From Paenibacillus sp. FSL W8-0186 (GTDB taxonomy: Bacteria > Bacillota > Bacilli > Paenibacillales > Paenibacillaceae), in assembly GCF_037969765.1 (NCBI RefSeq), contig NZ_CP150207.1, positions 4,967,501 to 5,031,500 of the forward strand: a stretch of 64,000 nt of DNA. The letters are read 5' to 3'. Below are positions 43,452-53,804 of the stretch, piece by piece (the stretch's first letter is position 1; each line of letters begins with the position of its first letter). Under the pieces are notes generated by a model. The model saw only the letters and a program-made list of their open reading frames with translations, made no database searches and was not told where the DNA came from. The translations under genes and the position numbers were made by a program.

Positions 43452-43706
43452 TCACGATTTATAATTACCCTGTGTTTTTTGTAGAACTATAAAGAAAGTA
43501 GAGAAATCAGGGACTTGGGTTAAGTCATAAGATAAAATTTTTTTGATAAGTGTCACCATAATTTCTTGTTCAAGATCATCTCTGTTATTATGCTCTATCT
43601 TGTTCCGCGCACTTTTTATAACTGGTAATATAATTTTTATTACTTCATATACTGCCTCACGGTCGCCCTTTTGTGCCTGGAGGACCAGATCAAATAGTTC
43701 ATCCAT
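43452..43706 (-). CDS. RsoA (YvrHa)-like sigma-factor accessory subunit
   Basis: The protein has 84 residues, beginning MDELFDLVLQAQKGDREAVYEVI, with a region-2-like helical fold (NRDDLEQEIMVTLIKKILSY). It matches the pattern of RsoA from B. subtilis, which supplies the sigma region 2 function missing from its partner SigO. GGGGAGG lies 6 bases before this ATG; a second ATG directly upstream is possible. It follows a YvrJ-like gene, which follows a SigO-like gene, all overlapping or abutting. Its assignment is by pattern and gene order, not by search. Confidence 0.7.
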   Translation of the reverse strand: MDELFDLVLQAQKGDREAVYEVIKIILPVIKSARNKIEHNNRDDLEQEIMVTLIKKILSYDLTQVPDFSTFFIVLQKTQGNYKS

Positions 43707-43881
43707 CATTACCCTCCCCACTCACTTTTTTATGAATTACCTCAATAAGTTTTGATATGGTTTGTGTTAAAAGCTCTAGTTTTTTTTCAAAGCGAAGAAG
43801 TAAATAACCTGTTAGTACAATCGGAAATCCTACCTGACTAATAGCTGTAAATATAAAAGCTAGGGGTTGATTATTTTCCAT
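43699..43881 (-). CDS. YvrJ family small membrane protein
   Basis: The protein has 60 residues. The start at 43881 lies 6 bases after GGGGTG and overlaps the end of the SigO-like gene by 11 bases. The motif ISQVGFPIVLTGYLLLRFEKKLELL is the YvrJ family pattern: one membrane helix, then an amphipathic tail. B. subtilis yvrJ lies beside sigO-rsoA. The helix plus charged tail also resembles small phage holins of the BhlA/UviB type, a second option. Its last codons overlap the rsoA-like start region. Confidence 0.75.
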   Translation of the reverse strand: MENNQPLAFIFTAISQVGFPIVLTGYLLLRFEKKLELLTQTISKLIEVIHKKVSGEGNDG

Positions 43882-44488
43882 CAGGGTCACCCCCCTTCTG
43901 GATGATGAGTCGTAATCTTCGCAGTGCTGTATTTCTAGTTTTGCACACAGCTTGCTGTGAAATACCAAATAAGCGGGAAATTTCAACATCCTTGTAGCAT
44001 AAAACATAGCTGTAGGTAATAATTTGTTGTTGTTTGCTGGTGAGGAGAGAAAAAGCCTTCGATAGATGATCATTGGTTATGGAATCTGGAAAAGTAGCGA
44101 GACTGCAATTTGGTATGTCGGAAGATTGAGTTGCATGTTTGCTAAGAAGTAATTCCCCGTAAGTTACAGACGTATCCTTATCTGATATCGGACTATCAAA
44201 TATAAGCAGATTTCTTTTCTTCATTTTGTGGTTTTGCCTCATATGATCAATTGCACAATAATGCACAGTAGAAACCAAGTACTTCGTAAAACGAACTCTA
44301 AAAAAATACTTACGAAATTTATCGTTTAGTTCAGGTAAATATTTTTGTTCATGGTCTACTGCTTTTAGTAAAAGAACAATGTTCTCTTCATTTTGAAAAA
44401 AACTACTGACTATACCATTTGAAAATACAGCTGCATTTTTTCGATAATAATGATCAAAAGTTCTTTTTTGAGATTTAGTTAGAATCAC
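43871..44488 (-). CDS. SigO (YvrI)-like RNA polymerase sigma factor, region 4 subunit
   Basis: The protein has 205 residues. A GTG start lies 6 bases after GGGGGTG. The C-terminal third is a sigma region 4 helix-turn-helix: LTSKQQQIITYSYVLCYKDVEISRLFGISQQAVCKTRNTALRRLRLII. The N-terminal half has no recognisable region 2, as in SigO (YvrI) of B. subtilis, which works only with RsoA. The RsoA-like and YvrJ-like genes follow directly. In B. subtilis this pair turns on oxalate decarboxylase genes under acid or wall stress; no oxdC is seen here. No anti-sigma gene of YvrL type was recognised nearby. Confidence 0.78.
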   Translation of the reverse strand: MILTKSQKRTFDHYYRKNAAVFSNGIVSSFFQNEENIVLLLKAVDHEQKYLPELNDKFRKYFFRVRFTKYLVSTVHYCAIDHMRQNHKMKKRNLLIFDSPISDKDTSVTYGELLLSKHATQSSDIPNCSLATFPDSITNDHLSKAFSLLTSKQQQIITYSYVLCYKDVEISRLFGISQQAVCKTRNTALRRLRLIIQKGGDPDGK

Positions 44489-44823: not shown

Positions 44824-45462
44824 ATGGAAGAGTATGCAAAAGTTCTGCGATGGTCAACGGATGTGGGTGTATATGGGCTAAGAACTACCATTCAGCTTCC
44901 CAAGAGCGCAACTTTCGAGAAAAATGTAGGCTTCATCAACTTCTACTTGGGTGTCTTTGGCGCAAATGTCCATTACGAATGCGGACTATCCACCAAACCC
45001 GCAGAAGCAGCAAATGACAACTGGCACTGGTTCTGGAATACCGGATTTGCCAACGATGGGGGGCCTTGGATGATAAAGGGAGGATCGGTGGTGCCGATCG
45101 AACTATCCCTGAATTGCAACGGACAGCTGGAGTTCAAGGTTGCCGGCGAGGTCGTGAAGACCTTCCTGGCTGAGGATGAACCCTTCGGTGCATTGACTAC
45201 TGCCAGGCTTGTTGTTGCCGCTTGTGATCAGAAATTCGAGATTGTGCCTGACCCGCTTCCGGAATGGACGACCCGCCACGACGCCGTCGTGTGCGATTGC
45301 TTCAGCTACAAGGACAGCAGCGGCACTTGGACGACGTTGTCGGCGGCGAATTCTTCTCCGCCGGAAGCTACGATATTCTGGCCGACGGGTTATGACCATA
45401 CCGGAACGCCCGCCGACTATACCACAGCCATTTCTGCAGGTAAAATCATTGCCACGCTATAA
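44824..45462 (+). CDS. Hypothetical protein (212 residues)
   Basis: The start follows AGAGG by 8 bases. It has no signal peptide or membrane helix. Rich in beta-prone and aromatic residues (NDNWHWFWNTGF, GGPWMIKGGSVVPIELSLNCNGQLEF), it looks like a lectin- or jelly-roll-type beta sandwich. A possible similarity to the YrpD family came to mind but I cannot confirm it. It is divergent from the SigO-like gene, with two palindromes between, and its GC content is higher in its 3' half than in the genes beside it. The function is unknown. Confidence 0.65.
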   Translation: MEEYAKVLRWSTDVGVYGLRTTIQLPKSATFEKNVGFINFYLGVFGANVHYECGLSTKPAEAANDNWHWFWNTGFANDGGPWMIKGGSVVPIELSLNCNGQLEFKVAGEVVKTFLAEDEPFGALTTARLVVAACDQKFEIVPDPLPEWTTRHDAVVCDCFSYKDSSGTWTTLSAANSSPPEATIFWPTGYDHTGTPADYTTAISAGKIIATL

Positions 45463-46297: not shown

Positions 46298-48880
46298 TTA
46301 CTTGATCAGCTGTCCACGCGTCACGCCGAGCTGGTTCGTCGCCTTGAGCGTCTTCCATACCTGGGTGCCGCTAATTTCACCGCGTAGGGCTTGGGTGTAG
46401 AGACGGATGACCTCATGCACCTTCTCCGGCGTTTCCTCCAAGAATTCGACACGATAGCTCCGTACCCCAAGCTCCAGGAAGTTCCGCAAATATTCCGCAC
46501 CCGACTGCTCGATCGCATTATATACCGTATTGCGGCAGCCTTCATCAACACGAACCGGATGGGACATGCCGATACGGTCCTGCAGGGATGCTCTATGCTG
46601 CTCGCATGGGCGGCCGCAGTTCGTATAGTCCGTACCCTCGCTCAGGAAGGTGCAGTAGACGCAATGCTCCGTATGGAACATCGGCAAGTGCTGGTGAATG
46701 ACGATCTCCATATTACCAGCCAGGCTCTGGCTGTTGCCCAGCAAATCCACCATCTGCTGGATGTTGAGATCGTAGGATGGCGTAACGATATCGCAGCCGG
46801 TCTCCAGAAACAGCTCCACGGTCTTGTGGTTGGCAATATTCAGCGAGAAGTCGCCGATCAGTTGCGGATGCTTCGCGTCCGGATTCTCCTGCCGGTGGCG
46901 CAAATAATAGTACAGCGCCCCGGTGTTGCGCACCAGCACCGCATCGGGCTCAAGCCGCAGGATGTTGTTATGGTAGCCGTTCTCGCCCGGCATATGGATG
47001 CGCGGCGTCGCGAGCGCGATTCGTTTGCCAGCAGCCCGAACGGCTTCCACCGCTGCCGGAAACTGCTTGATGAATTCAAAGTCGGCGTAGATCATCCCTA
47101 CGCCGGCCTCCAGCGCAGCCTGCACCTGCGGCAGGCTGCGGCACAGCGCGGTGAGCTCCGCTTCACCGCGCAAGGCGCGGCGCGCGGCCAAGCCCGCGCC
47201 GCCTACGGGCGCACCCGCTGCGCGTGGTGCGCCAGCGCCCGCCGCGCCCAGCACAGCTGTGGCGGCGGTGGCGGCGTCCGCCCGTTTCACGTAAACGGGC
47301 GGCTTTGGCCGTTCGCCGGCGAGCAGCTCCACTGCGCGCCGGCGGATGCTGTTCAGCTCTCGCATCGGCAGGATCACATCGCCATGCAGCGATGCATCCA
47401 GCTGTTCGAGCTGAAACAGCGTGCCGCCGAGACGGCCGAACTGCTCTTCGAGCAGGGCGCCGTCCATCGGCCGCTTTTGCGCCGTCTCGAGCAGCAGCTC
47501 GGAGTCGACGCGCACCGTTGTTCCCTTCTGCACATCCGTCCAGAAGGTCGCCAGCGGCTCGCCAGCCCGCCCTGCAGCGCGGACATGCACCGGGAATACC
47601 CGGTATGGCTTGTCCGTCTCGAACGTCTGGCGCAGTCTTTTATCCAGCGCGGGATCGCTCGTCTTCCAAATGCGGTCGCCGACGTGAACCTTGCGCAGAT
47701 CGACGTCATTGCGTCCCGGTATGATATCGACGATCCACTTCTCGTCCGCTTCGCCTTCCAGCCTCACACCTTTGCGGCGCAAATCATAGACACGTCCGCC
47801 TTCTTCTTTTTTCGTCGGATCCCCGGCATCGAAGACAATCCCGTCTCCGCGCTTCACAGGAGCCTCCAGGCGGCAGACCACGCCGTCGCGCAGCACCTGC
47901 TCCACCCGGCCCAAATACACGCCCCGGCTCTTCGGAAACGTACCCTCCACGAGCTTCTTATTGTTCGTGCCCTCCAGGAATCCATGCGTAAAGCCCCGCG
48001 AGAAGCTCTGCTGCAGCTCCCGAACCTCCTCCTTCGACGGCCGGGCATCCTCCCCGTCAAAATAACGGTCAATCGCCTTGCGGTATTTGCTCACAACGTT
48101 AGCTACGTATTCCGGGCTTTTTAAGCGCCCTTCGATTTTAAAAGACGTCACACCCGCCTCGATCAGCTCCGGCATCAAATCAATCGCTGCCAGGTCTTTG
48201 GGAGACAATAAATACGCCACATCCCCCATCGGCTTCTGCTCCCCGTCCACGATCAGGTCATACGGGAGACGACAGGCCTGAGCGCATTCCCCCCGGTTCG
48301 CGGAGCGCCCGCCCCACATCTCCGAGGTCAGGCATTGTCCCGAATACGATACGCAAAGCGCCCCGTGAACAAACACTTCCATCGGCAGCTTTGCCTGTTC
48401 TCCGATTTTCTGGATTTGCTTCAAATTGTTCTCGCGGCCCAGCACGACACGTTCCATATTCCATGGCTTCGTGAACTCGACTGCTTCCGGCGAAGTAATC
48501 GTCATCTGGGTCGAGCCGTGAATCGGAAAGTCCGGCGACATTTCGCGAATCATTTTGACCAGTCCCAAATCCTGCACGATCACCGCGTCTACGCCCGCAT
48601 CGATGCAGGCCTCGATCAACTCCGCCGCATCCCGCAGCTCATCCTCGAATACGAGAATATTAAAAGTCAGGAATCCCTTAACCCCGTAGCTGTGCAAAAA
48701 GGCCATAATCTCCGGAAGCTCGTCCATGCGAAAATTGTTCGCCCGGGCTCTGGCGTTGAATTTCTCGACTCCAAAAAAAATCGCGTCCGCCCCATTCGCC
48801 ACCGCGGCCCGCATACAGTCCCAATCGCCCGCCGGCGCCAAGAGTTCCACGTCCTGCCGCGTTAATGTTGTGCTGCTCAT
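46298..48880 (-). CDS. U32 family peptidase / RlhA-TrhP-type hydroxylation protein
   Basis: The start at 48880 (MSSTTLTRQDVELLAPAGDW) follows GGAGG by 5 bases. About 860 residues. The N-terminal U32 domain has ELLAPAGDWDCMRAA, AIFFG and the Cys cluster CLTSEMWGGRSANRGECAQACRLPY. A DUF3656-like middle comes next, then a second U32-like part with CVYCTF, NCGRPCEQH. E. coli relatives RlhA and TrhP hydroxylate rRNA or tRNA and likely carry an iron-sulfur cluster; true peptidase activity is doubtful. Between the halves lies an Ala/Gly/Pro/Arg-rich insert of about 40 residues, encoded by a very GC-rich patch (47.15-47.3 kb). Confidence 0.9.
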   Translation of the reverse strand: MSSTTLTRQDVELLAPAGDWDCMRAAVANGADAIFFGVEKFNARARANNFRMDELPEIMAFLHSYGVKGFLTFNILVFEDELRDAAELIEACIDAGVDAVIVQDLGLVKMIREMSPDFPIHGSTQMTITSPEAVEFTKPWNMERVVLGRENNLKQIQKIGEQAKLPMEVFVHGALCVSYSGQCLTSEMWGGRSANRGECAQACRLPYDLIVDGEQKPMGDVAYLLSPKDLAAIDLMPELIEAGVTSFKIEGRLKSPEYVANVVSKYRKAIDRYFDGEDARPSKEEVRELQQSFSRGFTHGFLEGTNNKKLVEGTFPKSRGVYLGRVEQVLRDGVVCRLEAPVKRGDGIVFDAGDPTKKEEGGRVYDLRRKGVRLEGEADEKWIVDIIPGRNDVDLRKVHVGDRIWKTSDPALDKRLRQTFETDKPYRVFPVHVRAAGRAGEPLATFWTDVQKGTTVRVDSELLLETAQKRPMDGALLEEQFGRLGGTLFQLEQLDASLHGDVILPMRELNSIRRRAVELLAGERPKPPVYVKRADAATAATAVLGAAGAGAPRAAGAPVGGAGLAARRALRGEAELTALCRSLPQVQAALEAGVGMIYADFEFIKQFPAAVEAVRAAGKRIALATPRIHMPGENGYHNNILRLEPDAVLVRNTGALYYYLRHRQENPDAKHPQLIGDFSLNIANHKTVELFLETGCDIVTPSYDLNIQQMVDLLGNSQSLAGNMEIVIHQHLPMFHTEHCVYCTFLSEGTDYTNCGRPCEQHRASLQDRIGMSHPVRVDEGCRNTVYNAIEQSGAEYLRNFLELGVRSYRVEFLEETPEKVHEVIRLYTQALRGEISGTQVWKTLKATNQLGVTRGQLIK

Positions 48881-49073
48881 ATATTCCTCCCCGAGCGGCC
48901 GAGCGGCCCTCGTATATTGATTTCCCTTAAATTTAAATTGAAACGACGATAACTTATTTATTTTATCAGACATTCCCTGCAGACTCTAGCTTTAATCCCT
49001 TCCAAAGGATGAACTTCTTTCGTATAGCTTGAGATCAAATTATGACATAATATAAACATCTTATTAAATAGAA

Positions 49074-49102
49074 TTGACCAATCATCAAATATTGTTTATA
49101 TT
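49074..49102 (+). promoter_or_regulatory. Predicted sigma-A promoter for the quorum-sensing regulator gene
   Basis: TTGACC (49074-49079), 17 bases, then TATATT (49097-49102) gives near-consensus boxes and optimal spacing. A leader of about 105 bases precedes the ATG at 49213. The rest of the gap 48881-49212 is AT-rich with no gene. Confidence 0.55.
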
Positions 49103-49212
49103 TGTAATATACTAGAAATCAAAGAATAAAAAGACATATTTCGAAGACAAGGGCCTTTCCATTTTCTAAACACTTACAGTTTGACAAGAAATACTGAAGA
49201 AGGATGATTTGC

Positions 49213-50604
49213 ATGAGCTATACATCTTCAGTTCTCCAGCATATCGTCGATTTCATGAACCAGGAAAATATGAATCTAAGGAAATTAGCAAGTAGCTCCA
49301 ATATTAACGCAGGCACACTGAGTTCCATATTAAATAAAAACAAAACATTAACAGTAGATCATTTGGATCGCCTTACAAGGGTCATGAATTACCCTGAGGG
49401 ATATTTTTACGAGCAATATATTAAAGACCATTTGAGCCAAAACATTCCCAACTGGCGAAGATTCAAGCCGTTCTTATACCGCTGTGCAGACCTCGATAAA
49501 TTGGACTGTATAAAGCAAGTGATCAGCTTGTTAATGGATAATCTGATGTACTCTCCCCTTCTATTCGAAGTAGCGGAAGACCTTTACCAGCAGAACAAGC
49601 GCAAAGCAGCAGAACTATTGTTTGAAAATGTGGCATTAAGCGAGAAGCATCAGCATTCAGAACGGCTCGCCTTCTGCCAATATCGACTATTTTCAATCCG
49701 CTTGGGAAGCAATCAAGAGGATAATTATAAAGCAGCTATTCTGTTCGAGCCCTATGTAGAAAGATTGGATGAACTTGTTCAATTAGATGCTTTGAGAGAC
49801 TTAGGAAATGTATACCGTTTTTTACACCAGTGGGATAAAGTAGAAATGATAGCAAACAGACTGGGTTATTTGGCCAGAACTTTATACTTCACGGCGCGAC
49901 CTGTGAAGATTCAAGAAAAATCTAAACCTAGCAGGCCGCTGTTTACATATATAGCATTGGCCAACTTATTTCACGCTGATGTTTGTGATGCACGAAGAGA
50001 TTATAAGCAGGCACTACACTATACCTCCTACTATGCTGATTTTAGCTGGGTTAAAGAAGATGATGAGAACACCCGGCACTGGAAAGGTGTCTTTCTGGAA
50101 TGGGCAAAGGCCAATACATATGTGATTAAGCTAATGTGTGGTGATACCAGTGTACTCCCAGAGTACGTTGCATATATCGAAAAAGAACAAGATGAACTTA
50201 TCCCAGCTTTATTTAATATTATGGAAGCAGCTAATCAATACCATTTCAATGTAGATCATATTCTTAAGCATTTTGAGTCTGAACTTGCAGCTTATGTGAA
50301 TAAGGACAAGACTGTTGATATCAACAAAAACCATTATAGCGAAAACCTTTTGTCTCTATTATTACACAATTTAGCTTACTATTATCTTAAGAAGGAAATT
50401 TACACCGCGGGGTTCGTGAATTTGCTAAAAGGACTTGAAAAATCCTCCTATATAAATAACAAAAAGTGTATGCTTAAATGTATGGGATTATTCGAACGAT
50501 ATAGAGATATGGCATCCCAAGAAACCTTGCTAAAATATAAAACTATAGTAAAAGGAGTTTATGAGAATGAAGAAAAAAATCCTGTTACTTCTTTTGACAG
50601 CTAG
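49213..50604 (+). CDS. HTH-TPR regulator, RRNPP type (candidate Alo/AimR-like peptide receptor)
   Basis: The protein has 463 residues from the ATG at 49213 (MSYTSSVLQHI), 9 bases after a GAAGG. An ATG three codons earlier is possible. Residues about 10-65 are a helix-turn-helix of Xre type (LRKLASSSNINAGTLSSILNKNKTLTVDHLDRL). The rest is all helical, with TPR-like pairs (KRKAAELLFENVALSEKHQHSERLAFCQYRLF; DALRDLGNVYRFLHQWDKVEMIANRL). This is the layout of RRNPP receptors (Rap, PlcR, AimR and the Paenibacillus AloR group), which bind re-imported peptides. Its stop lies inside the propeptide gene that starts at 50567, the gene order typical of such pairs. A recognised promoter lies upstream. Confidence 0.85.
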   Translation: MSYTSSVLQHIVDFMNQENMNLRKLASSSNINAGTLSSILNKNKTLTVDHLDRLTRVMNYPEGYFYEQYIKDHLSQNIPNWRRFKPFLYRCADLDKLDCIKQVISLLMDNLMYSPLLFEVAEDLYQQNKRKAAELLFENVALSEKHQHSERLAFCQYRLFSIRLGSNQEDNYKAAILFEPYVERLDELVQLDALRDLGNVYRFLHQWDKVEMIANRLGYLARTLYFTARPVKIQEKSKPSRPLFTYIALANLFHADVCDARRDYKQALHYTSYYADFSWVKEDDENTRHWKGVFLEWAKANTYVIKLMCGDTSVLPEYVAYIEKEQDELIPALFNIMEAANQYHFNVDHILKHFESELAAYVNKDKTVDINKNHYSENLLSLLLHNLAYYYLKKEIYTAGFVNLLKGLEKSSYINNKKCMLKCMGLFERYRDMASQETLLKYKTIVKGVYENEEKNPVTSFDS

Positions 50605-50686
50605 CTTTGCATTTACTTTATTTATTCCTACCCAATACTCATCAGACAGTAAAATAACGAGCAATTCAGCACTGCACGGAACGTAG
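50567..50686 (+). CDS. Secreted signalling propeptide (candidate AloP/Phr-type)
   Basis: The protein has 39 residues. The ATG at 50567 is 9 bases after AAGGAG (another ATG at 50561 is only 3 bases off). It overlaps the 3' end of the regulator gene by 38 bases in another frame. The N-terminus is a signal peptide: MKKK, then a hydrophobic run ILLLLLTASFAFTLF. The polar rest ends with ...ITSNSALHGT*. In Phr, PapR and AimP systems the active 5-8-residue peptide is cut from this C-terminus; here SALHGT or NSALHGT would fit. A long hairpin terminator follows. The gene is short enough to be missed by routine annotation. Confidence 0.8.
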   Translation: MKKKILLLLLTASFAFTLFIPTQYSSDSKITSNSALHGT

Positions 50687-50742
50687 AGTTGAATCCTGAC
50701 CCTAATAGTTCATCTCAGTTACATTAGTAAATTGCATCAAAT

Positions 50743-50785
50743 AACCCATCGTTAGGAACAAATCCTATGCGATGGGTTTCCTTAT
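50743..50785 (+). terminator. Terminator after the regulator-propeptide pair
   Basis: A two-part stem, AACCCATCG/CGATGGGTT outside and TAGGA/TCCTA inside with loop ACAAA, is followed by TTCCTTATTCTTA on the plus strand. It closes the two-gene unit. Bases 50786-50974 hold no further gene. Confidence 0.85.
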
Positions 50786-50974
50786 TCTTAGCTTACATAA
50801 AAATAATATAGTCTATACCATTGGCTCCGGTAGAATACAGGAGTCTTTTTCTCTTCCACCCGAAAAATCGTACCCGAAATTCGAGACCTACCCAAACCGG
50901 CAAAATTAGGACTATATTAAGGCTGAATGTCCACTTTGACTACCTCAACTTCAACCGAAAGGTGTGAGCAAGCA

Positions 50975-52687
50975 ATGTACAGAGACGATGGACGGGTAAA
51001 AGGCTACTTGCGTGCCGAAGGCCAGCGAATTGTGAACGGAGACGGGCAGGAGCTGCTGCTGCGCGGCGTGGGGCTGGGAAACTGGCTGCTGCCGGAAGGT
51101 TATATGTGGAAGTTCCCGCCGACCAACGCCGATCGGCCAAGACGAATCGAGAAGCTCGTCACGGACTTGATCGGGGAAGCCGCTGCCAAGGAGTTTTGGG
51201 TTACATTTCGCGAACGGTTTATAACCGAGGATGACGTGCGCCAAATCGCTGCGGAGGGCTTGAACTCCATTCGACTGCCAATCAATGCGCGCTGGCTGTT
51301 GGAGGAGGGCGATCCTGTAAGATTCAACCCGGATACCCTCGCTTTAATTGATCGTTTTATTGGCTGGTGCAAAAAATACAGCCTGTACGTCATCCTTGAT
51401 CTGCACGGAGCACCAGGCGGGCAAACGGGAGCGAATATCGACGACTCCGAACATGATCAGCCGGAGCTGTTCACTAACGAGGATTACTGGCGGCGTACCG
51501 TCGAGCTGTGGAGAATGCTAGCCGACCGTTATAAGGATGAATGGATCGTCGGCGGCTACGATCTGCTGAACGAGCCGCTTCCGGAATGGTTCAACATGCA
51601 TAACGGCAAGCTCATGCCGCTCTACAAGGAAATCACCGCCGCGATCCGCGAGGTCGACGACAAGCATATGATTATCATTGAAGGCGCCCATTGGGCAACC
51701 GACTGGTCGATGTTTACCGCCGAAGATATGTTCGACGACAATCTTTTGCTGCAATTCCACAAGTACTGGAGCAGTCCTGACCAAGAAGGAATCGCCCCCT
51801 ATTTAGAGAAGCGGGAAATGCTGAACATGCCTATATACATGGGTGAAGGCGGTGAGAACAGCTTGGGCTGGTATGCTGGAGCCTTTGGTTTATATGAGGA
51901 TCATCATATTTCATGGAACTTCTGGACCTGGAAAAAACTCGACACAGTTAACTCCCCTTGCTCCATCCGCCGGCCACATCACTGGGATCTTATTTTGAAC
52001 TATGTGGATGGCAGCGGCGAGAAACCAGATCAAGCAGCTTCAGCAGCCATCCTTAACGAATACCTGGACAACATTCTGCTTGGCAACTGCGACTATCTCC
52101 CAGGCGTGCTGCGAGCCGTTCAGCGTAAGCTGCCGCTTCGCATGCCTGCCGAGCATTATGGTCATCGGGGCCAAAACATTAGCTGGGGCGCCACCGCTGA
52201 CAGCGAAAGAGAGCAAGCTGGCCTGCAAGCTTTAACGTCCAAGGAGCAGCCTAACGTATTTCGTCCAGATGACGGCATCCACGTCGGGTTCCTCATGGCC
52301 CAGGATGGTACGCCAAATTATCATTTGAAGCCGGAAGAGGAATGGAACGAAGAGCATCGCCTCTGCGTGACACTTACTGCGGGAGATTGGGTCGCATACC
52401 CGTTCTTGTGTGAGTCTCCCGCCGCTTACACGCTGCAAATCAAGCTGCGCGCCTTGACCGAGAGTGCTGACAAGGGTACTCACGAGGGTATCGACGAGAT
52501 TGCTGAACTCGTTGTGCATACGGATCGTTATAGGCACCAGACCATCAACGTGTCCTCACAAGATTGGAGCATCATCTCGGCGGGGCAGCAAACGATATCC
52601 TCCAGCGGAGAGTTCGATTTAAAAATAGAGGTCATAAGCGGCACTATCGTCATCGATTGGCTGGAATGGCTGCCGGTCGGTCAATGA
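50975..52687 (+). CDS. GH5 family glycoside hydrolase (cellulase-like)
   Basis: The protein has 570 residues from the ATG at 50975 (MYRDDGRVKGYLRAEG), 9 bases after AAAGGTG; the frame is open upstream without a better site. The (beta/alpha)8 domain spans about residues 15-370: LRGVGLGNWLLPEGYM, INARWLLEEGD, VILDLHGAPGGQ, the acid/base Glu200 in YDLLNEPLPEW, and the likely nucleophile Glu291 in YMGEGGENS. A C-terminal beta-rich part (about 430-570, LCVTLTAGDWVAYPF) could be a carbohydrate-binding module. It has no signal peptide, so it may act inside the cell on imported oligosaccharides, or be exported another way. It is monocistronic. Confidence 0.9.
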   Translation: MYRDDGRVKGYLRAEGQRIVNGDGQELLLRGVGLGNWLLPEGYMWKFPPTNADRPRRIEKLVTDLIGEAAAKEFWVTFRERFITEDDVRQIAAEGLNSIRLPINARWLLEEGDPVRFNPDTLALIDRFIGWCKKYSLYVILDLHGAPGGQTGANIDDSEHDQPELFTNEDYWRRTVELWRMLADRYKDEWIVGGYDLLNEPLPEWFNMHNGKLMPLYKEITAAIREVDDKHMIIIEGAHWATDWSMFTAEDMFDDNLLLQFHKYWSSPDQEGIAPYLEKREMLNMPIYMGEGGENSLGWYAGAFGLYEDHHISWNFWTWKKLDTVNSPCSIRRPHHWDLILNYVDGSGEKPDQAASAAILNEYLDNILLGNCDYLPGVLRAVQRKLPLRMPAEHYGHRGQNISWGATADSEREQAGLQALTSKEQPNVFRPDDGIHVGFLMAQDGTPNYHLKPEEEWNEEHRLCVTLTAGDWVAYPFLCESPAAYTLQIKLRALTESADKGTHEGIDEIAELVVHTDRYRHQTINVSSQDWSIISAGQQTISSSGEFDLKIEVISGTIVIDWLEWLPVGQ

Positions 52688-52812
52688 TTTCTAAAACCTC
52701 GAGACGAATCGTTCACCATCTCGCCAGCGACAATGACTGATTACTGCTGATCACAAGCGGCAGGCAAACTGTGATTCTGAACCTGCAAGCCCCGAGACCG
52801 AGGCCGAGATTT

Positions 52813-52997
52813 CTAACGAATCTCACAACCGCTATTTGTAGAAAAATCACCCCTTTCAAAATGTAACGAATCCAGGGTACGTTATTTCAGTCTATTACCG
52901 CTCCAAACAGCAGTTAAACCGCAAATAGCGTGGCTGACATTCGTTAGATTCAGAATCAACGCTAATATGTACAAATAACGTGAATGAGATTCGTTAG
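52813..52997. repeat. 185-bp dispersed element, copy 2
   Basis: It has the same length and the same terminal sequences as copy 1 at 45789-45973. In this copy the internal inverted repeat is clearer: CTAACGAAT..CGCTATTTG near the start pairs with CAAATAGCG..ATTCGTTAG ending near 52947. A third ATTCGTTAG closes the element. Confidence 0.7.
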
Positions 52998-53035
52998 ACT
53001 CGGGGTATCGGAGGTATCAGGCGAACGGGCTACCA

Positions 53036-53145
53036 GGTAACGGGTTAACGGGGTATTGGGCTACGGGCTACGGGGTAACGGACTTACGGACTTATGGACT
53101 TACGAACTTACGGATTTACGGATTTATAGACTAACGGACAACGCT
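53036..53145. repeat. Degenerate 8-bp tandem repeat
   Basis: About a dozen units vary around GGTAACGG and then ACTTACGG (for example ACGGACTT ACGGACTT ATGGACTT ACGAACTT). It lies directly after the 185-bp element, in the gap after the GH5 gene. Confidence 0.7.
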
Positions 53146-53174
53146 AACCTGCGAATGCTTCCTTCCACTTGCCA

Positions 53175-53212
53175 AACACACACAAACGGCGTCCCTGCCG
53201 TTTGTGTGTGTT
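53175..53212 (+). terminator. Perfect 16-bp hairpin, probable terminator
   Basis: AACACACACAAACGGC pairs with GCCGTTTGTGTGTGTT around GTCCCT. ATTTATG follows on the plus strand. It is nearly 500 bases past the GH5 stop, so what it ends is unclear. Confidence 0.6.
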
Positions 53213-53531: not shown

Positions 53532-53711
53532 GCCGTAACCCCCTTCTTAAAAATCACGTATATACACATCTCCCTATATGTTATCTTCCCCAGGGTTTGG
53601 ATGCAAGGGGAACAGCAAATAAAAAATGAATTTGTCACAATTTAGACAATATTTTGGCGTGGTTTACTGAATTAAAGTAACCACTTTCCTTGACTTTCAC
53701 AGTTTAGACAA

Positions 53712-53751
53712 AAGAAAAGCCCCCTAAACCACTTAAAGTGATTCAGAGGGT
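53712..53751 (-). terminator. Terminator after uvrA
   Basis: A long stem (CCCTCTGAATCACT with AGTGGTTTAGGGGG, minus strand) and a TTA loop are followed by TTTTCTTTTG. It lies 54 bases past the uvrA stop. Confidence 0.85.
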
Positions 53752-53804
53752 CATTCCATATAACTCTATGCTGTGCTCCTGCCAATCTCTTCGGCTATCG
53801 CTGA

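Follow-up and report, generated by a model that had tools for sequence, protein, structure and literature searches.

A Probable AloR-AloP Quorum-Sensing Pair on the Chromosome of Paenibacillus sp. FSL W8-0186 and the Joint Variation of Its Sensor Half and Signal Gene

The Locus and the AloR-AloP Family

In the RRNPP quorum-sensing systems NprR-NprX, PlcR-PapR and Rap-Phr a receptor with a tetratricopeptide repeat (TPR) sensor fold is followed by a peptide gene, with Rap proteins not being known to carry a helix-turn-helix (HTH) or other DNA-binding domain. The order of an HTH and TPR receptor and a peptide gene also characterizes the AimR-AimP (arbitrium) systems, as well as AloR-AloP of Paenibacillus polymyxa ATCC 842, where the peptide gene lies at or overlaps the 3′ end of the receptor gene and encodes a hydrophobic signal sequence (PMC7425212). 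According to the same report, the AloP13 peptide SHGRGG shuts down a promoter that is activated by its AloR, and the next gene, spo0E, is the target of Alo13. Here we describe a gene pair within a 64,000-nucleotide (nt) stretch of the soil bacterium Paenibacillus sp. FSL W8-0186 (NZ_CP150207.1, positions 4,967,501 to 5,031,500; hereafter the window) that resembles the ATCC 842 systems in the full-length homology and HTH and TPR architecture of the receptor, in the position of the peptide gene and in its hydrophobic signal sequence, and that is with high confidence a chromosomal AloR-AloP quorum-sensing pair of this published Paenibacillaceae RRNPP family.

An AloR was defined in PMC7425212 by an MMseqs2 E-value below 1e-10 and a length of at least 250 amino acids (aa). 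Judged by BLASTP and not by MMseqs2, the window receptor is homologous over its full length (34% identity over 437 aa, E 6e-85) to a receptor encoded beside an exact copy of the AloP13 propeptide, the printed sequence of which was found in three of 394 family genomes at 100, 96 and 83% identity. The same receptor is 46% identical to a paralogue in the window genome (L003), while the plasmid receptor of ATCC 842 (WP_029515185.1), which is accompanied by an annotated overlapping open reading frame (ORF) of 43 aa, is 44% identical to the window AloR over 463 positions. Of the 394 Paenibacillaceae genomes 237, belonging to 5 of 19 genera, contain a family match at E 1e-20 or better. Among the named matches the highest (99%) comes from Paenibacillus woosongensis 12CR55, and P. 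woosongensis is the species of the window genome. Three Alo loci are present in this genome, and all three are accompanied by a small ORF, the products of which end in NSALHGT, PLIHGLGG and GLEHGGGY. The original prediction of an RRNPP-type pair, which listed the AloR-AloP group among the systems with this gene order, can thus be narrowed to AloR-AloP by homology. By contrast, AloP scores 14 bits against the NprX profile NF033801 (cut-off 33), and the HTH of the window AloR sets it apart from Rap-Phr.

The description of the receptor as a 463-residue HTH and helical-repeat regulator is borne out, although an in-frame ATG at 49204 would extend it to 466 aa. An AlphaFold model (predicted local distance difference test score 89.1, predicted template modeling score 0.81) has helices at residues 7-57, Pfam HTH_26 matches the receptor with E 5e-4, just below the Pfam cut-off, and a profile of the Alo family matches HTH controller proteins in the PDB at E 1e-4. 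The C-terminal part of the model forms a TPR-like superhelix, and a fold without TPR, which would have spoken against a peptide receptor, was not obtained. NprR, Rap and PlcR are among the structural matches, but unrelated TPR proteins fit the model better. Pfam and NCBIfam searches of the pair gave weak HTH matches only, PHROGs returned a phage regulator family (E 5e-7), and PADLOC returned weak N-terminal matches only, to RmrA and others. In the PDB the AloR sequence matched the HTH alone, and the family profile matched mainly HTH proteins together with weak helical-repeat matches. A scan of 48000-53000 against Rfam gave no match.

The small gene encodes 39 aa (MKKKILLLLLTASFAFTLFIPTQYSSDSKITSNSALHGT), arranged as MKKK, a hydrophobic stretch and a polar tail ending in SNSALHGT, in agreement with the AloP pattern of a 32-50 aa ORF with hydrophobic N-terminus downstream of or overlapping the receptor gene. 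The coordinates and description given for it earlier, including a good ribosome-binding site, proved correct; an alternative in-frame ATG at 50561 (41 aa) would leave just 3 nt to this site. A location of the mature signal at the C-terminus is consistent with the variable, HG-containing end of AloP and, by analogy, with SHGRGG of AloP13, which likewise contains HG (PMC7425212).

A secreted-type ORF preceded by a ribosome-binding site is present at the receptor end in 85 of 110 receptor loci, some of which represent one gene taken from each of two collections. In 81 of the 101 loci with enough flank it lies at -75 to +60 of the receptor stop, and 55 of these 81 ORFs include HG among the last eight residues. 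At seven other offsets on the same strand (-1200 to +900) such an ORF was found in 0-2 of 100-110 loci each, and at eight offsets on the opposite strand in 0-5 of 100-110 each. The small-ORF count is an underestimate, as the script chose the wrong frame in at least five loci (L009, L010, L012, L018 and L019). In all five close orthologues (receptor identity 70-84%) the aloP ATG likewise lies 38 nt before the receptor end and the frame is open, so that the small frame, the decay of which in relatives would have argued against a signal gene, has been kept. It is therefore very unlikely that the small ORF is a chance frame at the end of a genuine receptor gene, with the regulator sensing something else. 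Such a reading can point to the shortness of the ORF and to the 25 of 110 loci without one by the scan, but it is opposed by the excess over every same-strand control offset, by the identical place and open frame down to 70% identity, by the recurrent HG end, by the small ORF annotated on the ATCC 842 plasmid and by the fragments of 9 of 14 such peptides that were found in the medium according to PMC7425212.

Scarcely credible is the derivation of the pair from the arbitrium system of a decayed prophage. Seven of 53 relatives do match the AimR profile NF038310, with E down to 5e-6, and an AloR-like gene occurs in Brevibacillus phage SecTim467. The window AloR, however, reaches 20.6 bits against an NF038310 cut-off of 70, covering profile positions 4-98 only, and just two of 50,697 phage records match AloR, at 25-27% identity (the family is present in 34 of 72,556 plasmid records). 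The pair is flanked by a U32 peptidase gene upstream and uvrA downstream in 12CR55, G022, P. bouchesdurhonensis and P. ihumii, four of the five relatives examined, while in P. fonticola U32 is followed by a second aloR and the stretch examined did not reach uvrA. The chromosomal setting and the rarity in phage records support the earlier view that the system is chromosomal and not phage-borne.

The Sensor Half and the Signal Gene Vary as One Block

In ComR-ComS of Streptococcus suis, a different family, two strains have identical DNA-binding domains and the C-terminal half of the receptor varies with the peptide (PMC4072589), whereas a search for recombination in Rap-Phr gave no evidence (PMC5199041), in contrast to what is seen in Alo. 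As in ComR, and also between paralogues of one genome, AloR systems are best described by two evolutionary modules, and we consider it rather probable that these are exchangeable cassettes, one consisting of the promoter/operator and the DNA-binding half and the other of the sensor half and the peptide gene, joined behind an HSERLA motif. Exchange would rewire a promoter to a new signal, so that P. woosongensis strains would have pherotypes at two of the three Alo loci and, in genomes with multiple Alo systems, several peptides would feed one DNA-binding specificity. A fixed DNA-binding half with a replaceable sensor and signal would offer a direct and testable answer to why there are so many Alo systems.

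At the window locus the block becomes apparent by comparison with G022, a congeneric genome. NCBI names its receptor (P0008) as P. woosongensis, although the genome collection does not count G022 as conspecific with the window genome. Residues 1-150 of AloR are 99-100% identical between the two, with a synonymous divergence (dS) of 0.07-0.10, and the four segments behind residue 150 are 55-89% identical with a dS of 0.26-0.85; the dS of the neighboring genes is 0.11-0.14, and the background median is 0.083 (203 genes, 400 kb). The two AloP sequences share 44% identity across 34 aligned codons and end in SNSALHGT in the window and in SYFLQHGA in G022. Nucleotide identity, taken in steps of 100 bases, is 97-100% over 48400-49699, which includes the promoter, falls to 57-93% in each step of 49700-50899, with the last mismatches of the block near 50829-50846, and returns to 96-100% over 50900-51499. 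Other stretches of the window diverge from G022 too, mainly intergenic ones at 52900-53199 and 53600-53799. Among 201 syntenic genes AloR has the 9th lowest identity and the 16th highest dS, and among 132 long genes its within-gene contrast is the 2nd largest. The gene ranking first in this contrast, like several of the other divergent genes, resembles surface-polysaccharide genes by eye and from its first residues. The second Alo locus of the window genome repeats the pattern against G022 (N-terminal half 0.975, C-terminal half 0.706), which is missing at the third (0.948 and 0.961). G022 has the look of a natural swap at the locus of the window pair.

Across 220 receptors, 234 protein pairs have one half that is at least 90% identical, and the N-terminal half is more alike by over 12 points in 101 of them, the C-terminal half in none. 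Since a more slowly changing N-terminal half could alone produce this asymmetry, the DNA was examined. Of 52 pairs with at least 90% protein identity in the N-terminal half, 18 combine an N-terminal dS below 0.5 with a C-terminal dS more than 2.5 times as high. At the nucleotide level (125 receptors) 22 pairs, in 7 of 20 groups linked by the N-terminal half, have an N-terminal identity of at least 0.90 and a C-terminal identity of at most 0.80, and the reverse was not found; window/G022 (C-terminal half 0.82) lies outside these 22. Within single genomes, the P. brasilensis paralogues L197/L200 (= L071/L099) are 0.97 identical before and 0.56 behind residue 172, and L224/L225 of genome G117 are 0.99 identical before and 0.72 behind residue 170; the likeness starts about 150 nt upstream of the gene in L224/L225 and extends throughout the 200 nt inspected in L071/L099. 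Fifteen of the 44 pairs listed for P. brasilensis and G117 have a single-break likelihood ratio of at least 100, and the best break falls at residues 150-172 in 12, many of which have a member in common, and at 302-323 in three, all involving L196. The original prediction had asked whether the peptide C-terminus varies together with the receptor, and it does so with the sensor half only: over 90 loci, similarity of the last eight residues has a partial rank correlation of 0.27 (p 0.0005) with the C-terminal half and of -0.01 (p 0.59) with the N-terminal half.

Several points weigh against an exchange of cassettes. Physical linkage alone would carry aloP along with the C-terminal half, so that the correlation shows joint descent, while specificity is not demonstrated by it. 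HSERLA does not vary in any of the 13 rows chosen without the motif, but the named loci added later were fetched with it, and its invariance in the larger set is therefore partly by construction. The N-terminal tree rejects a grouping of G022 with P0010 (approximately unbiased test, p-AU 4e-6), but the C-terminal tree joins the two at just 73/52 and does not reject window+G022+P0001 (p-AU 0.18); P0003+P0010, which are 0.98 alike in the N-terminal and 0.78 in the C-terminal half, are near the limit in the C-terminal tree (p-AU 0.064), and DNA trees of eight rows are without firm conflict. With topology tests this weak, the cassette may have come from a distant donor or may represent old alleles retained over a long time, and on either account the sensor half and the signal gene vary as one block. 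Rapid evolution in situ, whether neutral or under positive selection and without any exchange, would suit the generally lower conservation of the C-terminal halves and the absence of firm conflict in the DNA trees. It is nevertheless unlikely, since dS rises as well, from 0.08 to 0.55 in window/G022 and from 0.01 to 1.45 in L224/L225, for which selection at the protein level is not a sufficient explanation, and since 12 of the 15 strongest pairs break best at residues 150-172, albeit many of them with shared members.

The kind of pair described here is already known. As far as searched, a published report of the cassette pattern in AloR was not found, an absence that carries little weight because most subscription journals were not covered: the main texts of PMC9765709 and PMC10075063 contain no mention of recombination or swapping, and in PMC7425212 swapping is not mentioned and "recombin" occurs once, in a reference.

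Regulatory Signals and Proposed Mode of Action

Table 1. Features of the aloR-aloP locus and its surroundings (window coordinates).
Feature	Position	Strand	Evidence or remark
U32 peptidase family gene, divergent neighbor	46298..48973	-	context
aloR promoter candidate: TTGACC (49074-49079), 17-nt spacer, TATATT (49097-49102)	49074..49102	+	block conserved
Candidate AloR operator (putative binding site): 19-bp palindrome CAAATAT-N5-ATATTTG, located between -35 and -10	49086..49104	.	conservation
aloR, HTH + TPR receptor, 463 aa	49213..50604	+	34% to AloR13-type receptor, 44% to ATCC 842 receptor; AlphaFold
Conserved DNA-binding module, residues 1-158	49213..49686	+	99% aa identity to G022
HSERLA motif, codons 148-153, directly before the module junction	49654..49671	+	invariant in 13/13 rows
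Divergent specificity cassette: aloR sensor half, aloP, terminator	49687..50829	+	differs from G022 as a block
aloP ribosome-binding site AAAGGAG	50551..50557	+	9 nt 5′ of ATG 50567
aloP, 39-aa secreted-type propeptide	50567..50686	+	38-nt overlap with aloR (50567-50604); conserved position
Predicted mature signal SALHGT (codons of the six C-terminal residues)	50666..50683	+	analogy with AloP13 SHGRGG (PMC7425212)
Terminator-like hairpin 3′ of aloP	50743..50778	+	-20.7 kcal/mol, z -5.2, 0/200 shuffles as good
GH5 family gene	50927..52687	+	adjoins pair in window, 12CR55, G022; context

The block of -35 element, palindrome and -10 element (Table 1) is conserved in the window and in all five aligned orthologues; the promoter match by itself means little, because the nine promoter-like sites in 48600-51400 do not exceed those of shuffled sequences (mean 6.8, standard deviation 2.5). 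The palindrome is exact in five of the six aligned sequences including the window, with the first base differing in P. bouchesdurhonensis, and its exact form occurs once in the 5.66-Mb genome, in the aloR promoter. It still adjoins aloR in P. ihumii and P. fonticola, where the near end of U32 lies at a distance of 1.3-1.4 kb. This suggests that the palindrome is the operator of AloR itself and that the pair is at least autoregulated. A wider palindrome regulon was considered and rejected: the genome has one exact and three one-mismatch sites, compared with one site for the reversed control pattern, and two of the three one-mismatch sites lie inside long open frames, so that no regulon is claimed. 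Upstream of most other AloR genes inspected, palindromes (arms of at least 7) were missing or were single unshared ones, and hence no operator is proposed for the other classes. The stem of the hairpin behind aloP recurs in orthologues with pair-keeping changes, and it is plausibly a terminator, although its T tract is poor and a simple terminator scan did not list it.

By analogy with the family, AloP would be translated from the 3′ end of the aloR transcript and exported through its signal sequence. Processing would leave a short C-terminal peptide, probably SALHGT, which an oligopeptide permease may then import (the genome encodes eight OppA-type proteins) and which would bind to AloR in its TPR groove. 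The bound peptide would alter the action of the HTH half on DNA, and the palindrome in the promoter of aloR itself is the most likely first site of this effect. The sensor half and the signal gene may be replaced by recombination or retained as old alleles, and variation of this second module as a block would give strains with the same DNA-binding end and different signals.

Neighboring Genes and Related Loci

The GH5 and U32 genes, which had been proposed as possible targets, have become weaker candidates, U32 because the palindrome stays at aloR when U32 lies at a distance. Control of GH5 by the pair is improbable: the gene follows the pair in the same orientation in the window, 12CR55 and G022, and in Alo13 it is the next gene, spo0E, that is the target (PMC7425212), but a search for GH5 in the P. 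bouchesdurhonensis, P. ihumii and P. fonticola stretches gave no match, so that GH5 is not a conserved neighbor of the pair. Furthermore, the terminator-like hairpin and 148 nt separate GH5 from the pair, and a copy of the palindrome with at most one mismatch was not found before it. Spo0E was likewise considered as a target and rejected, since, unlike in Alo13 (PMC7425212), the window pair has no adjacent spo0E, and none of the three spo0E-like genes elsewhere in the genome adjoins an Alo locus.

AloR-like proteins of about 290 aa without an HTH, matching the receptor from about residue 184, are encoded at L118, L121, L216, L217, L219, L236 and L237. A secreted-type small ORF overlaps the gene at these loci, starting 44-59 nt before its stop (7 of 13 such loci, counted without a control), and its product ends for example in NHGADH, FYHGANH or NHGMNH, which amounts to a Rap-like architecture within the Alo family. 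At L027, from another family of the order, the ORF next to an AloR-like receptor carries the end SHGDGY twice. Brevibacillus phage SecTim467 (L246) has a putative spo0E as well as the AloR-like gene (27%), which is overlapped by a small ORF without a clear signal sequence.

In 12CR55 the GH5 frame (L036:5715-7472) appears, from the frame coordinates, to be broken by one in-frame stop. On the forward strand of the window, an ORF of 212 aa at 44824-45462 has no Pfam match at E 0.1. On the reverse strand, overlapping ORFs at 43699-44488 have a YvrJ domain and a sigma-70 region 4 (Pfam), an arrangement that presumably resembles the yvrJ/sigma neighborhood of Bacillus.
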